From Gemmataceae bacterium (GTDB lineage: Bacteria; Planctomycetota; Planctomycetia; Gemmatales; Gemmataceae), in assembly GCA_947490035.1 (NCBI GenBank), contig CANLGS010000028.1, forward strand, positions 1 through 14,611: a stretch of 14,611 bases of DNA, in the 5' to 3' direction. The notes under the pieces were generated by a model, which saw only the letters and a program-made list of their open reading frames with translations, ran no database searches and was not told the DNA's origin. The first letter of the stretch is position 1. Each line of letters begins with the position of its first letter. The translations under genes were made by a program, and so were the position numbers. Below are positions 1 to 4,683 of this stretch, piece by piece.

Positions 1-101
1 AGGCATGGTGTCAGCGGGGTGGGGACGAGGTTCTCTTGCGGTCTGCTTGTGGCGATCACGCCACGGTGTCGGCTCGCCGGACGAACTCGGCGGCTGCACC
101 C
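1..101. repeat. 101-bp direct repeat, copy 1
   Basis: This stretch recurs at 1102-1202 with one mismatch (T at 48, G at 1149), so 100 of 101 positions agree. The match stops abruptly after a CGGCTGCACCC motif, and the sequences then diverge completely. The left limit is unknown because the window starts here. Short reading frames starting in it are identical in both copies for 28 codons and then diverge, so I do not treat them as genes. The near identity suggests recent duplication or a mobile/dispersed element end. Confidence 0.95.
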
Positions 102-161
102 AACACGTATTCGGACTCGCACGGCGCGGCCCCGAAGGGTCGGCGGTGGACCGGGGTCTTG

Positions 162-279
162 CGTGCAGATCGACGCCGACGTAGGATGCGGCGGTGGCCG
201 TCAGGTAACGCATGGCGAAGGTCTCCAGGGGTTCCGCGGGGCGAACGACGCCCCGCAAAGAGTAAACCGGAACCTTCAT
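162..279 (-). pseudogene. Possible IS110-type transposase N-terminal remnant
   Basis: Read on the minus strand from the ATG at 279, a frame of about 39 codons gives a sequence containing RYLTATAASYVGVDLHAR. The YVGVDLHAR part resembles the first catalytic-Asp block (DEDD nuclease) at the N-terminus of IS110-family transposases. After this block the frame continues into low-complexity Arg/Pro/Ser codons with no transposase resemblance, so at most a short 5' fragment is present. The call rests on one short motif and may be chance. The remainder of 1-408 holds the direct repeat and an attC-like palindrome, and I see no intact gene there. Confidence 0.22.
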
Positions 280-282
280 CAG

Positions 283-377
283 TATCCAAGCGCTGCAGCA
301 GACGGCGGGGCACGATAGGTTTCTGGGGGTTCGTAGCTCACCGGTGCCCCGCCGCTGCTGAGCTGGGTCGTTCGGCG
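283..377 (+). other. attC-like recombination site 1
   Basis: An imperfect inverted repeat pairs 296-313 (CAGCAGACGGCGGGGCAC) with 344-360 (GTGCCCCGCCGCTGCTG), with one extra base in the left arm. Outside it, the left side reads CCAAGCGCTGCAG and the right side reads TGAGCTGGGTCGTTCGGCG. This layout matches an integron attC: a left simple site, a stem with an extrahelical base, a variable loop, and a right GTTRRRY-type core, here GTTCGGC at 370-376. The left core is degenerate. The site ends about 31 bases upstream of the SnoaL-like ATG, as expected for the head of a cassette. The attC reading is inference; the inverted repeat is directly visible. Confidence 0.55.
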
Positions 378-408
378 ACAATCAACAACAACGGAAGGAG
401 TAAGTGTC

Positions 409-1005
409 ATGCGATGGGTGATTCCAAGCACGCACGCAGTGTTTTCTCGGTGTGCCGCGGCGATGGTGGTCTTCCTGGCAACCCATATCCAGGCGGTCGC
501 GGACGATCCGGTTAAGAAAGCAGCCATCAACGAAGCAGAGGTCAACGCCGCGCAGCAGGCGTGGTGCGATGGGCTGGTGAAGATCGGGAAGGTGCATAAG
601 GACGGGGGCGACTACAAAGCCGTGGCGAGCGAACTCATCGATGATCTCTACGACTACAAAGAGGGCAAAGTGTTCTTCAAGCCTACTTTGGCATTCGGCA
701 AGAATACCTTCCGAAATACCAGGGAAGGCGCACTCTCGTACTTCATCGGTGGGAACAAGGACTTTCCCGAGGACACCGGTTTTGCCCTGAAACACTGGGT
801 GAAAGTGCGCTACGACAACAATGCGGCGGAGAATGGCATTCAGATTCATGGCGACATTGCTATCACGATGGGGAATGTGTACTGCACGAACGCCAAGGGT
901 GAGGAAGTCACGGTGGACAAGACGTTTGTGTTTCGACGGTGCAAGGATGGCAAGCTGCGGCTGTGCGTGCACAAATCGGCACTGCCGTTTGAACCGAGCA
1001 AGTAA
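409..1005 (+). CDS. Secreted NTF2/SnoaL-like protein
   Basis: This gene encodes 198 residues. The first 31 or so form a Sec signal peptide: a short basic start, a hydrophobic core AAAMVVFLATH, and likely cleavage after AVA before DDP. The mature part resembles a family of small secreted proteins with an NTF2/SnoaL-like cone fold, with blocks such as AQQAWCDGLVKIGKV, GGDYKAVA, FKPTLAFG, GNKDFPEDTGFALK, HGDIAITMG and TVDKTFVFR. Members are often auto-annotated as 'phosphoribosyl-AMP cyclohydrolase', but I see no HisI zinc-site motif and would not transfer that name. The start is supported by GGAAGGAG at 393-400, 8 bases before the ATG. Its substrate or role is unknown. It lies directly downstream of attC-like site 1, so it may be an integron cassette gene. 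Confidence 0.85.
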   Translation: MRWVIPSTHAVFSRCAAAMVVFLATHIQAVADDPVKKAAINEAEVNAAQQAWCDGLVKIGKVHKDGGDYKAVASELIDDLYDYKEGKVFFKPTLAFGKNTFRNTREGALSYFIGGNKDFPEDTGFALKHWVKVRYDNNAAENGIQIHGDIAITMGNVYCTNAKGEEVTVDKTFVFRRCKDGKLRLCVHKSALPFEPSK

Positions 1006-1101
1006 CCGCAAAGAGCGGAATGAACCGTGCCGAACCCGTATAAGGTTCCGGAAGTCAAGAGAAAAAATGTCCCAGTCCACAGCTTTTGTTGAGATCAACA
1101 A

Positions 1102-1202
1102 AGGCATGGTGTCAGCGGGGTGGGGACGAGGTTCTCTTGCGGTCTGCTGGTGGCGATCACGCCACGGTGTCGGCTCGCCGGACGAACTCGGCGGCTGCAC
1201 CC
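1102..1202. repeat. 101-bp direct repeat, copy 2
   Basis: This is the second copy of the repeat at 1-101. It lies in the gap between the SnoaL-like gene and the BrnT toxin gene. A small palindrome (TTTGTTGA-GA-TCAACAAA, about 1085-1102) sits directly at its left edge. Its right end, GCCGGACGAACTCGGCGG followed by CTGCACCC, resembles the left arm of an attC site, but no convincing right arm follows; a degenerate candidate is the GTCGTTGAC stretch near 1229. The rest of the 1006-1287 gap holds nothing else I can identify. Confidence 0.95.
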
Positions 1203-1287
1203 GACGGAAGCGGGAGGAGCGGGTTCAGTCGTTGACTCCCGCGTCTCACGCTGCGATGATGACTCCGCACCGGGGCGGAGAGCGGGC

Positions 1288-1503
1288 ATGGGCTTCGAGT
1301 GGGATGAGGACAAGGCCAGCGCCAACGAGGCCAAGCACGGCGTCTCGTTTGCCGAAGCGTCGTCCGTCTTCGGCGATCCGCTGGCCGTCACGTTCGACGA
1401 CCCGCTGCACTCGGCCGATGAGGACCGTTACCTGACCATCGGCCTGTCGGCGGCGGGCCGGGTGCTGATCGTGTCGCATACCGACCGCGGGGCCGCCACC
1501 TGA
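1288..1503 (+). CDS. brnT: BrnT-family toxin, truncated by an in-frame TGA
   Basis: The 71-residue product starts MGFEWDEDKASANEAKHGVS and continues with FGDPLAVTFDDP and RYLTIGLSAAGRVLIVSHTD. This is the classic BrnT pattern (RelE-like ribonuclease toxin of type II toxin-antitoxin modules). The family normally runs to about 90 residues. Here the frame meets TGA at 1501-1503, but the same frame continues after it as VISARVASRGERKGYEDGN up to a TAA at 1573-1575. That tail is exactly the conserved BrnT C-terminal block (consensus roughly R-I-I-S-A-R, then E-R, then Y-E). A single C-to-T change of CGA to TGA would explain this. The toxin is therefore probably inactive unless read through. The start at 1288 follows GGAG at 1277-1280. 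The full-length frame would overlap the antitoxin start by 23 bases, the usual tight coupling. Confidence 0.8.
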   Translation: MGFEWDEDKASANEAKHGVSFAEASSVFGDPLAVTFDDPLHSADEDRYLTIGLSAAGRVLIVSHTDRGAAT

Positions 1504-1552
1504 GTCATCAGCGCGCGAGTGGCCAGCCGCGGCGAGCGCAAAGGATACGAGG

Positions 1553-1771
1553 ATGGCAACTACCCCCGAGCCTAACGATGACCTGCTACCGGAGTACGAC
1601 CTGTCGCAGCTGCGCGGCGGCATCCGCGGTAAGCACTACGCGCGATACCAAGCCGATCCACCGAGGGTAGTCCGGCTGGACCCGGACGTGGCGGCGGCGT
1701 TCCCGACCGAGGCAGCGGTGAACGCGGCGCTTCGGCTGTTGGCCGAGGTCGCTCGCCGCCAGTCCGCGTAG
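1553..1771 (+). CDS. Antitoxin of the BrnT module
   Basis: This 72-residue acidic small protein has the pattern LLPEYDLSQLRGGIRGKHYARY, then VRLDPDVAAAFPTEAAVNAAL. The pattern is shared by a widespread antitoxin family encoded next to BrnT-like or other small toxins. By analogy it binds and neutralises its toxin and autorepresses the operon. The start is set by AAGGA at 1541-1545, 7 bases before the ATG. Its start lies inside the 3' end of the intact-length brnT frame, so the two genes are translationally coupled. It appears full length with no disruption, so it may be an orphan antitoxin if the toxin is dead. Its stop is 10 bases before attC-like site 2, as for an integron cassette. Confidence 0.75.
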   Translation: MATTPEPNDDLLPEYDLSQLRGGIRGKHYARYQADPPRVVRLDPDVAAAFPTEAAVNAALRLLAEVARRQSA

Positions 1772-1781
1772 CGAAGGCACA

Positions 1782-1893
1782 CCGCCCCAGGCGCTGCACC
1801 GGACCCGGCCACGTCCGCTGTTTCCCGTAGCTCACTGGTTCCTGTGTTCGCGGCGGGTGTCGCGGCCGGGCAGGTGAACTGGGTCGTTCGGCG
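1782..1893 (+). other. attC-like recombination site 2
   Basis: The inverted repeat pairs GCACCGGACCCGGCCACG (about 1796-1813) with CGCGGCCGGGCAGGTGA (1861-1877), with mismatches. The left end reads CCGCCCCAGGCGCTGCACC and the right end TGAACTGGGTCGTTCGGCG, ending in the GTTCGGC core at 1886-1892. The last 15 bases (1879-1893) are identical to 363-377 in site 1. GCGCTGCA (1791-1798) recurs at 290-297, and both loops contain GTAGCTCAC. At about 110 bp it fits the attC size range. It begins right after the antitoxin stop. With site 1 it would bracket a cassette-like segment of about 1.5 kb. Confidence 0.6.
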
Positions 1894-2610: not shown

Positions 2611-4683
2611 TCACTTCGCGAAGCGGTAGATGCCCTTCCCGGTCGCGCTGAAGGTCATGAAGTACATCTCGCCCTGCTCGTCCTCGCCGAACGACAGGAT
2701 CGGCTTCGCCGGGTCTTGGATCGGCCGGTTCGCGGTCACGCGCTTCGCGGTCTCGTCGTACTTCAGCGCCCAAATCTTTGACGAGACGTAGTCCGCGTAC
2801 ACGTAGTGCCCGGCCAGTTCCGGCAGCGCCTTGCCGCGGTACACGCCGCCGCCGGTGATCGACTTGCCGATGTCGTGGTGGTACTCCCAGATCGGGTCGA
2901 TCATGTCCTTGTTCTGGCTGACGCCCTTCGGCCCGAACGGGTGGAGCGATTCGCGCAGGCTCCAGCCGTAATTGCCGCCCTTTTCGATGAGGTTGATCTC
3001 TTCGTAAAGGTTCTGGCCCACGTCCGCGGCCCACAGCTTGCCCGTCCCCCGGTCGAAGCTCATGCGCCACACGTTGCGGATGCCGTAGGCCCAGATTTCC
3101 CCGCGCGCGCCCTTCTTATCCACGAACGGGTTGTCCTTCGGGATCGCGTAGTTCTTCCCCGCGTCCTTCTTGTCGATGTCGAGGCGGAGAATCTTGCCGT
3201 ACAGCACGCCGAGGTTCTGGCCGTTCTCCTCCGGGTCGCCGCCCTTGCCGCCGTCGCCGTGGACGACGTACAGGAAGCCGTCTCGCCCGAAGCACACGGT
3301 TCCGCCGTCGTGGTTCCAGAACAGCTTTTTCTCGAACCGGATGATTTGCTCTTCGGAGGCCGGGTCGAGCTTCGTCGGGTCGGTCTTACTCAGCCGGAAC
3401 CGCGACACCACGTTGACGCTGTCTTCCTTCTTCGGCGTGTAGAAGACGAAGACCTCGCCCGTCTCCTTGAATTTCGGGTGGAAGGCGACGCCGAGCAGCC
3501 CTTCTTCGTTGGTCTTGTCGTCGTACTTCACGCGGTCCTGGATGTCGAGGAACACCTTCGTCTCGGTGGCCTTCTGGTCGTTGGCGAAGACGTGAATCGT
3601 GCCCTGTTGGATGGCGACGAAGACGCGGTTGCTGCCGTCGCCGGCGTGCGTCAGCACGATCGGCCGCAGCGGGTTCGGCTTGCCGGTGCTGGTCTCGGCG
3701 CTCCACCCGGCCCACTTCAGGTCGGGGAACGCGATTTCCGTCTTCAGCGGCAGTGGGCTGAAGTCGATCGGCGCGCCCGGCACCTGCGCGGGAATCGCGG
3801 TGAGCGTGCCGCCCTTCATGTCGGGCACGAGGATGTTCTTGCCGTCGGCGGAAAGGCAGGTGTCCGCGGCCGACTTGAAGCCTTCGGCCACGAGCAGCGG
3901 CTTGTCGCCGGGCCGCGCGATGACGAACAACTTGCCGGTCTTCCAACTGGAAATGAACAACCGGCCGTAGTGGTCCCACGTGAGGCCGTCGGCGCCGTCG
4001 ATGCCGTCCGCGATCTTCTCGCTGGTGCCGTCGATCAGTTTGACACGATAGATGACGCCCGAACCGAAGTCGGCGAGGATGACGTGCGACGCGCCGTCCA
4101 TCGCGAGGCCGTTGGGGGTATGCAGGCCGGGCAGCTTCTTCGCGTCAACGAGGAGATCGACCTTGAGTTCACCCTTCGGGACCGGCGGCGCCTTGCCCTT
4201 CGGCATCGGCGGGGGCGTGATGCGGAACACCGCACCGCCGGCGCCCTTGCGGTCGCCGGAGTCGCTGACGAACACGATGCCGCTTTCCGGGTCCACCACG
4301 ATGTCGTTGAGGAACTGCGGCGGGACGGGGAACTTCGCGGCGTCCGCGTACACTTCCGCCTTCGCCGGCTTCGCGGTCAGGTCGATGCGCAGCACCTTCG
4401 TCTTGTCCGCGACGTACAGCCACTTCTGGTAGATGGCGATGCCCTTGGGGTCGTCAAGCCCAGCGACGAGCGTGGTGGCTTTACCGCCTTCGACGACGGC
4501 GATGGAACCGTCGCCGTCCTTATCGAACTCGCCGATGACGGAGACGTAAATCTTGCCGTCCGGCCCGACGACGACCGATTCCGGGTTCACAAGCCCTTCG
4601 ATCATGGGCTTGGGCAGTTCCGCGGCGCCGGCGGAAGCCGGTCCGACGAGCAGGAGGAAGGCGAGAGAGAGGTAGCGCTTCAT
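2611..4683 (-). CDS. Secreted two-propeller protein: SMP-30/NHL-like plus glucose/sorbosone dehydrogenase domain
   Basis: This gene encodes 690 residues with a Sec signal peptide (MKRYLSLAFLLLVGPASAGA). Residues about 25-310 look like an SMP-30/strictosidine-synthase-type beta-propeller, with repeated blades such as ESVVVGPDGKIYVSV, PNGLAMDGASHVILADFG and GLTWDHYGRLFISS. Residues about 330-690 match the PQQ-dependent aldose (glucose/sorbosone) dehydrogenase propeller. Typical motifs are EEGLLGVAFHPKF, NHDGGTVCFGRDGFLYVVHG near residue 455, YGIRNVWRMSFD, DVGQNLYEEI and GGNYGW. Known members oxidise sugars in the periplasm with PQQ. Substrate and cofactor use here are inferred. The fusion of two propellers makes it about twice the length of a simple sugar dehydrogenase. 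The ATG at 4683 lies downstream of a promoter-like pair (CACTAT/TTGCCC on the minus strand). It is divergent from the DUF1501 gene. Confidence 0.9.
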   Translation of the reverse strand: MKRYLSLAFLLLVGPASAGAAELPKPMIEGLVNPESVVVGPDGKIYVSVIGEFDKDGDGSIAVVEGGKATTLVAGLDDPKGIAIYQKWLYVADKTKVLRIDLTAKPAKAEVYADAAKFPVPPQFLNDIVVDPESGIVFVSDSGDRKGAGGAVFRITPPPMPKGKAPPVPKGELKVDLLVDAKKLPGLHTPNGLAMDGASHVILADFGSGVIYRVKLIDGTSEKIADGIDGADGLTWDHYGRLFISSWKTGKLFVIARPGDKPLLVAEGFKSAADTCLSADGKNILVPDMKGGTLTAIPAQVPGAPIDFSPLPLKTEIAFPDLKWAGWSAETSTGKPNPLRPIVLTHAGDGSNRVFVAIQQGTIHVFANDQKATETKVFLDIQDRVKYDDKTNEEGLLGVAFHPKFKETGEVFVFYTPKKEDSVNVVSRFRLSKTDPTKLDPASEEQIIRFEKKLFWNHDGGTVCFGRDGFLYVVHGDGGKGGDPEENGQNLGVLYGKILRLDIDKKDAGKNYAIPKDNPFVDKKGARGEIWAYGIRNVWRMSFDRGTGKLWAADVGQNLYEEINLIEKGGNYGWSLRESLHPFGPKGVSQNKDMIDPIWEYHHDIGKSITGGGVYRGKALPELAGHYVYADYVSSKIWALKYDETAKRVTANRPIQDPAKPILSFGEDEQGEMYFMTFSATGKGIYRFAK

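Follow-up and report, generated by a model that had tools for sequence, protein, structure and literature searches.

Damaged attC sites and IS1111-type insertions in a probable integron relic from a Gemmataceae genome

The DNA analyzed here (hereafter the window, 14,611 nucleotides, contig C28 of the draft genome) very likely holds the remnant of a Gemmataceae-type integron array in which the pairing between R'' and R' is broken at every attC site, and from which, we infer, cassettes are no longer efficiently excised. On what is known of integron biology, IntI would once have placed the cassettes by recombining attC sites folded from the bottom strand, cutting after the G of GTTCGGC. At two sites, attC-A and attC-B, the R''/R' pairing is disrupted because an IS1111-type element occupies the gap between R'' and L'', and at the remaining one, attC-C, because R'' carries three substitutions; excision would thereby have become inefficient and the array frozen. 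Judged from its sequence the array is probably a frozen integron relic. The new points are the loss of an intact R'' at both sites already described in the window, the remnant of a third attC, and the interruption of the first and third by an IS1111-type element.

Two palindromes sharing several sequence blocks had been reported in a preliminary description of this DNA, and they are real and correctly placed. The 15-base right end CTGGGTCGTTCGGCG is found at 363–377 and 1879–1893, GTAGCTCAC lies inside exact matches at 333 and 1827, and GCGCTGCA occurs at 290 and 1791. Scanned with up to three mismatches the 15-mer gave two or more matches in 116 of 200 shuffled sequences and alone is not striking, yet both copies in the window are exact. 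The composite pattern GCGCTGYA-N55..85-GTCGTTCGGC was found at three places in this genome, and its reversed control at none. As had been proposed, a covariance model was run on the window; it was built from 67 sites, all from other genomes, and no window sequence contributed to it. Both sites were matched, 282–376 with 68.6 bits [E 2.3e-15] and 1781–1892 with 45.7 bits [E 1.1e-9], these E-values being rough, and the next-best match in the window reached 19.1 bits.

The first of these, attC-A (287–376, plus strand), comprises the L'' half, stem, loop, L' and R' (GTTCGGC, 370–376). The other, attC-C (1781–1892, plus strand), has the same R' at 1886–1892 and an R'' altered to ACCGCCC at 1781–1787; both R' boxes contain the G/TT cleavage triplet. 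Folding of the bottom strand, also proposed earlier, bore out site 1, which folded better than all 200 shuffles (z -3.62), but not site 2, which did not rise above them (z +0.41, with 125 of 200 shuffles equal or better). The bottom-strand folds of site 1 and of two relatives show a hairpin that is imperfect, some bases on its L'' side having no partner. A search of the window at Rfam gathering thresholds gave no match, and we know of no attC family in Rfam. The full R' consensus is GTTRRRY. Both window sites and most of the family, arrays beside IntI included, have C as the fourth base; this departure from the consensus is treated here as a presumed lineage variant.

Among relatives, a site of this family has a complete R'' (GCCGAAC) pairing with R' (GTTCGGC). 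The spacers do not pair, one arm of the long stem has two bases without partners, and the loop varies. The composite pattern was matched in 21 of 59 genomes, this one included. Since the reversed pattern also gave up to one match per strand in any genome, single matches may be due to chance; those in G015 (18), G006 (6) and G026 (13) lie far above this control and are all lined up in one direction. A second pattern, asking for the R''-L'' block with no more than two mismatches, yielded 124 distinct sites, 67 of which were aligned for the model. Their consensus structure contains 24 pairs, 11 of them with double changes. Pairing cells amounted to 95.6%, compared with 79.6% for shuffled alignments, which also gave a covariation score of 0.100 where the real one reached 0.350 (none of 500 shuffles as high in either case); when partners were slid by 1 to 3 columns this score was at most 0.100. 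Over all five measures of covariation, none of the 500 shuffles was as high on three, while the two weaker ones were reached by 12 and 17 of 500.

At E 0.001 the model found matches in 46 of the 59 genomes, again including this one. Because up to 70 candidates were scored per genome, the high counts in G002 (at least 70) and G016 (at least 68) are lower bounds; 15 genomes from other families of the class gave 0 to 2 matches each. The median site spacing is 561.5 bp, and sites run one way in 26 of the 27 loci with several listed sites. In G002 family sites extend over approximately 64 kb of a one-contig genome (C1, 5164154–5228602), which suggests a very large array. The genome from which the window comes has ten model matches at nine places at E ≤1, on contigs C302, C468, C28 (two), C747 (both strands), C640, C263, C347 and C200, the last with E 0.0015. 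The one on C747 (2224–2319, locus L082) is a near-perfect palindrome, both arms of which resemble the L'-R' half of an attC.

IntI genes lie next to sites of this family in relatives. Matches to TIGR02249 above its cut-off were obtained in 21 of 59 genomes, and the IntI of G014 aligns over residues 4–313 of 314 with an integron integrase of determined structure [3.5e-89, PDB 2a3v]. Of 25 IntI places examined, fragments included, 16 have a family attC site in the stretch and nine have none in it.

Duplicated units were also sought within the loci compared, where 23 repeat pairs of at least 130 bp and at least 90% identity were found. In three of these, each end of either copy falls no more than five bases from an R' box; the remainder are overlapping, looser or unrelated. 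A 246-bp unit bounded by R' is present twice in G028 (100% identical). In G014 a 332-bp unit stands at two places of the array, each 100% identical to a copy some 1.9 Mb away, and the same array holds a third copy (99.7%). Such R'-bounded duplications in relatives are evidence, at the level of sequence, for units bounded by R'.

The attC identity and orientation suggested earlier, and the Gemmata-like host, are borne out by the one-way arrays, the covariation, the adjacent IntI genes and the cassette duplications in relatives. One could instead regard the palindromes as REP-like or terminator elements spread by a transposase and unrelated to integrons. They are indeed palindromic and repeated, and that at C747 (2224–2319) is scored by the model on both strands; one-way arrays with gene-sized spacing, adjacent IntI, the conservation of unpaired bases on one arm, and duplicated units with ends at R' nevertheless make this explanation extremely improbable.

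Given that the sites are of the attC type, their condition in this genome can be set beside that in relatives. Of 246 model matches, 217 were tabulated for damage (208 from relatives and nine from this genome), leaving out 13 opposite-strand doubles of listed sites, two edge-cut matches and 14 weak matches with E from 1e-4 to 8e-3. Six of the weak matches, five in locus L068 and one in L225, are on the strand opposite to that of the sites tabulated there, and one in L076, at 6009, is without R''. R'' is within one mismatch of the box at 190 of 208 sites in relatives as against three of nine here, the former figure being raised by selection because the model was built from sites with R''; for R' the counts are 199 of 208 and seven of nine. 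Neither window site found by the model has an intact R'' beside its stem. Since R'' has been displaced by an element at site 1 and reads ACCGCCC, with three substitutions, at site 2, both are filed as damaged members of the family. The notion that every R''-less site in relatives reflects an insertion sequence was rejected: L065 fits, with an IS110-type element, while L071 and L076 are without a recognized transposase in the frames listed around their sites.

The element that displaces R'' at attC-A occupies positions 1–286 (minus strand), its far end lying beyond the contig edge. It carries no complete transposase gene; the start of a transposase frame (MRYLTATAASYVGVDLHA, 161–213, minus strand) matches the start of the full-length transposases of G063 and G116, the remainder being missing. 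A Pfam scan of an 83-residue hand translation of the first 260 bases, which leaves the transposase frame after the first residues, gave nothing. The right-hand subterminal repeat CCGGAACCTT is at 267–276. Positions 157–288 recur at 99% identity directly upstream of another attC in the same genome, on C468, and the right end with its junction to L'' is common to all five copies in which it was read. A short but complete copy, roughly 386 bp long, lies on contig C59 of G003. Its ends carry AAGGTTCCGG and CCGGAACCTT, and it is flanked by GCCGAACC before and CCAGGCGCTGC after, the R'' and L'' of one attC.

The left end of this copy and the R'' box before it recur at window positions 1029–1051 and so reveal a third attC, attC-B. 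Only its R'' box (GCCGAAC, 1029–1035, plus strand) is present; the junction is as in G003, G063, G116 and others. It is followed by a second copy of the element (1037–1205, minus strand), of which the left part is retained, with the subterminal repeat AAGGTTCCGG at 1042–1051. Positions 1038–1205 are 83% identical to the G003 copy, and 1102–1205 are 98% identical to 1–104. This 104-bp repeat had been considered as a degenerate attC and was discarded as such, being part of the IS1111-type element. Nothing of this second copy is present beyond 1205, and apart from its R'' box attC-B is missing. The preliminary description was right that its two palindromes are attC sites, but the window contains three attC remnants, none with an intact R'' joined to its stem.

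Full-length copies of 1,851 and 1,855 bp (ends as read) lie between R'' and L'' in G063 and G116. They encode a 347-residue transposase of the DEDD type with pfam01548 (PF01548) and pfam02371 (PF02371) domains, followed by approximately 730 bp of non-coding DNA, and the G063 transposase resembles IS621 [6e-13, PDB 8wt6]. The subterminal inverted repeats AAGGTTCCGG and CCGGAACCTT are likewise IS1111-type features, and by our reading of the junctions the terminal extensions are about 5 and 9–11 bases, the exact ends being approximate. A DNA search with the G003 copy matched seven of 95 Gemmataceae genomes, two of them weakly. In the loci read, all ten left ends with no more than one mismatch follow an R''-like box and all five right ends precede L''; matches with three mismatches are not at R''-like boxes, and among similar loci the left end is missing in L287 and L290 and degenerate in L289. 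With one mismatch allowed, a 17-base right-end pattern gave ten matches in the 59 genomes and its reversed control four. The three exact matches are element ends at attC, whereas the single mismatched one inspected out of seven (on C163) is no such end. An attC of G015 is interrupted almost at this point by another element, which is of the IS110 type and has its two domains split between separate frames.

It might be argued that ordinary mutation or deletion removed R'' from site 1 and that the similar sequence upstream is not mobile, the window copy having no complete transposase gene and running into the contig edge with its left junction unseen. Against this, both junctions are seen around the complete short copy of G003 and around the full-length copies of G063 and G116, and the same right end recurs before a second attC on C468; we consider such a loss very improbable. 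Insertion of an IS1111-type element is the reading adopted here.

Three further observations concern shortened copies. Those at 1037–1205 of the window and at 777–944 of locus L082 (C747) share their last base (...GGCTGCACCC). After it, the copy on C747 continues into AAATCGTTAGGC and then GGCGGAGGG, resembling an R' box and the start of a cassette. In G003 (contig C1250, locus L292, about 1769–1880) the L'' half of an attC comes within some 100 bases after a left end of the element, and a very short copy may exist there.

Turning to the cassettes, the distances given earlier are correct: 31 bases separate the first site from the following gene and 10 bases the antitoxin stop from the second site. 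The first gene (409–1005, plus strand) specifies a secreted-looking protein of 198 residues, with a signal peptide recognized by eye. It had been labeled SnoaL-like, which Pfam does not support, the single match being to DUF6162 [E 0.014], below its cut-off. A search returned 3057 homologs, and among the matches listed 120 carry a precomputed PF27546 assignment, suggesting a protein of this kind. Homologs are present in 16 of 95 Gemmataceae genomes, this one included. Outside the window, three of 15 such loci have a family site nearby and twelve have none in the stretch: the homologs of G090 (79% identical) and G011 (39%) are followed immediately by an attC of the same orientation, the arrangement of a cassette, and that of G026 has a family site about 1 kb downstream.

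The BrnT label given to the next gene (1288–1503, plus strand) held up [PF04365, 3e-21, positions 1–63 of 77]. The frame is shorter than the family length, and family-like sequence continues behind its in-frame stop at 1501–1503. By its position the small ORF at 1553–1771 (plus strand) is a putative antitoxin; it had no Pfam match at 0.1 and no NCBIfam match at 0.01. Downstream of the array, 2611–4683 (minus strand) encodes a 690-residue protein with GSDH and SGL domains and is apparently ordinary chromosome.

The window had also been described as lacking an integrase. No IntI above the TIGR02249 cut-off was found in the genome, the best match [3.4e-21] covering only positions 240–303 of 315; weak matches of this sort mean little because all 14 control genomes also give matches below the cut-off. 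This is not to be called absence, as the draft, 4.67 Mb spread over 754 contigs, has a completeness of 68% and the first site lies close to the start of its contig. Reverse-oriented intI genes have been described in integrons of Spirochaetota and Treponema (PMC9668308, PMC3607928). Similarly, intI is co-directional with the array in 12 of the 16 places with sites; the remaining four differ from those integrons in being divergent, one on the strength of a single 34-bit site.

Consequently there is a substantial, though minority, chance that the integron still has its integrase, located either past the left end of the contig or in the third of the genome that the draft does not cover. A co-directional intI would sit to the left of site 1, the side on which it lies in most relatives' loci, and there the contig ends after 282 bp. 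Two results count against this alternative: the search of the genome gave no IntI above the cut-off, and R'' is lost at six of nine tabulated sites, which is what an array fallen out of use should show. A cluster of attC sites lacking an integrase is termed a CALIN (PMC9668308, PMC12444791). The window resembles one in that two attC sites can be detected at a distance of about 1.4 kb and the contig carries no intI, but with the contig edge so close and the genome 68% complete a CALIN and an integron cut by the edge are not separable.

Planctomycetes have sedentary chromosomal integrons, for which a taxon-specific attC model is available (Ghaly et al. 2021, PMC8352920). These agree with the Gemmataceae arrays in phylum, one-way attC arrays and an IntI of the TIGR02249 family; they differ from the window, whose array is damaged and whose assembly contains no integrase. 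The IS1111 elements ISKpn4 and ISPst6 target attC and have terminal extensions of 7 and 3 bases (PMC11187229). The Gemmataceae element is like them in that it inserts in attC, has a DEDD transposase and subterminal inverted repeats, and carries non-coding DNA behind its transposase gene; its insertion point is set only against their description ("one end"). It is unlike them in its planctomycete host, in having derivatives without a complete transposase gene, and in terminal extensions that look longer than 7 and 3 bases.

Since attC-targeting IS1111 elements, a Planctomycetes attC model and reverse intI have already been described, the parts of this system are of known kinds. A literature search, with most subscription papers outside its coverage, found nothing on Gemmata integrons or integrase or on an inverted integrase in Planctomycetes, and absence from print is not claimed. 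Though each piece is of a known kind, their combination in a little-studied family is informative.

Integron arrays and an attC family are documented across many Gemmataceae, with a covariance model that also detects damaged sites, and attC-targeting IS1111-type elements are shown in a planctomycete family, the papers compared treating other bacteria. A bolder proposal, possible but rather doubtful, is that an IS1111-type lineage in Gemmataceae has specialized on the gap between R'' and L'' of the local attC family, that its short transposase-less derivatives, which retain both ends and some of the non-coding region, move in trans by means of a guide RNA of their own, and that together these lock arrays. 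A conserved block in the element resembles the flanks; word matching for a guide RNA (seekRNA) was at chance, equaled in 434 and 298 of 500 shuffles. The natural transposase-less derivatives could serve to test guide and transposase apart, and the question of whether such an element freezes an array becomes directly testable. If the proposal is true, IS1111-type elements and their short derivatives would be a natural brake on integrons.
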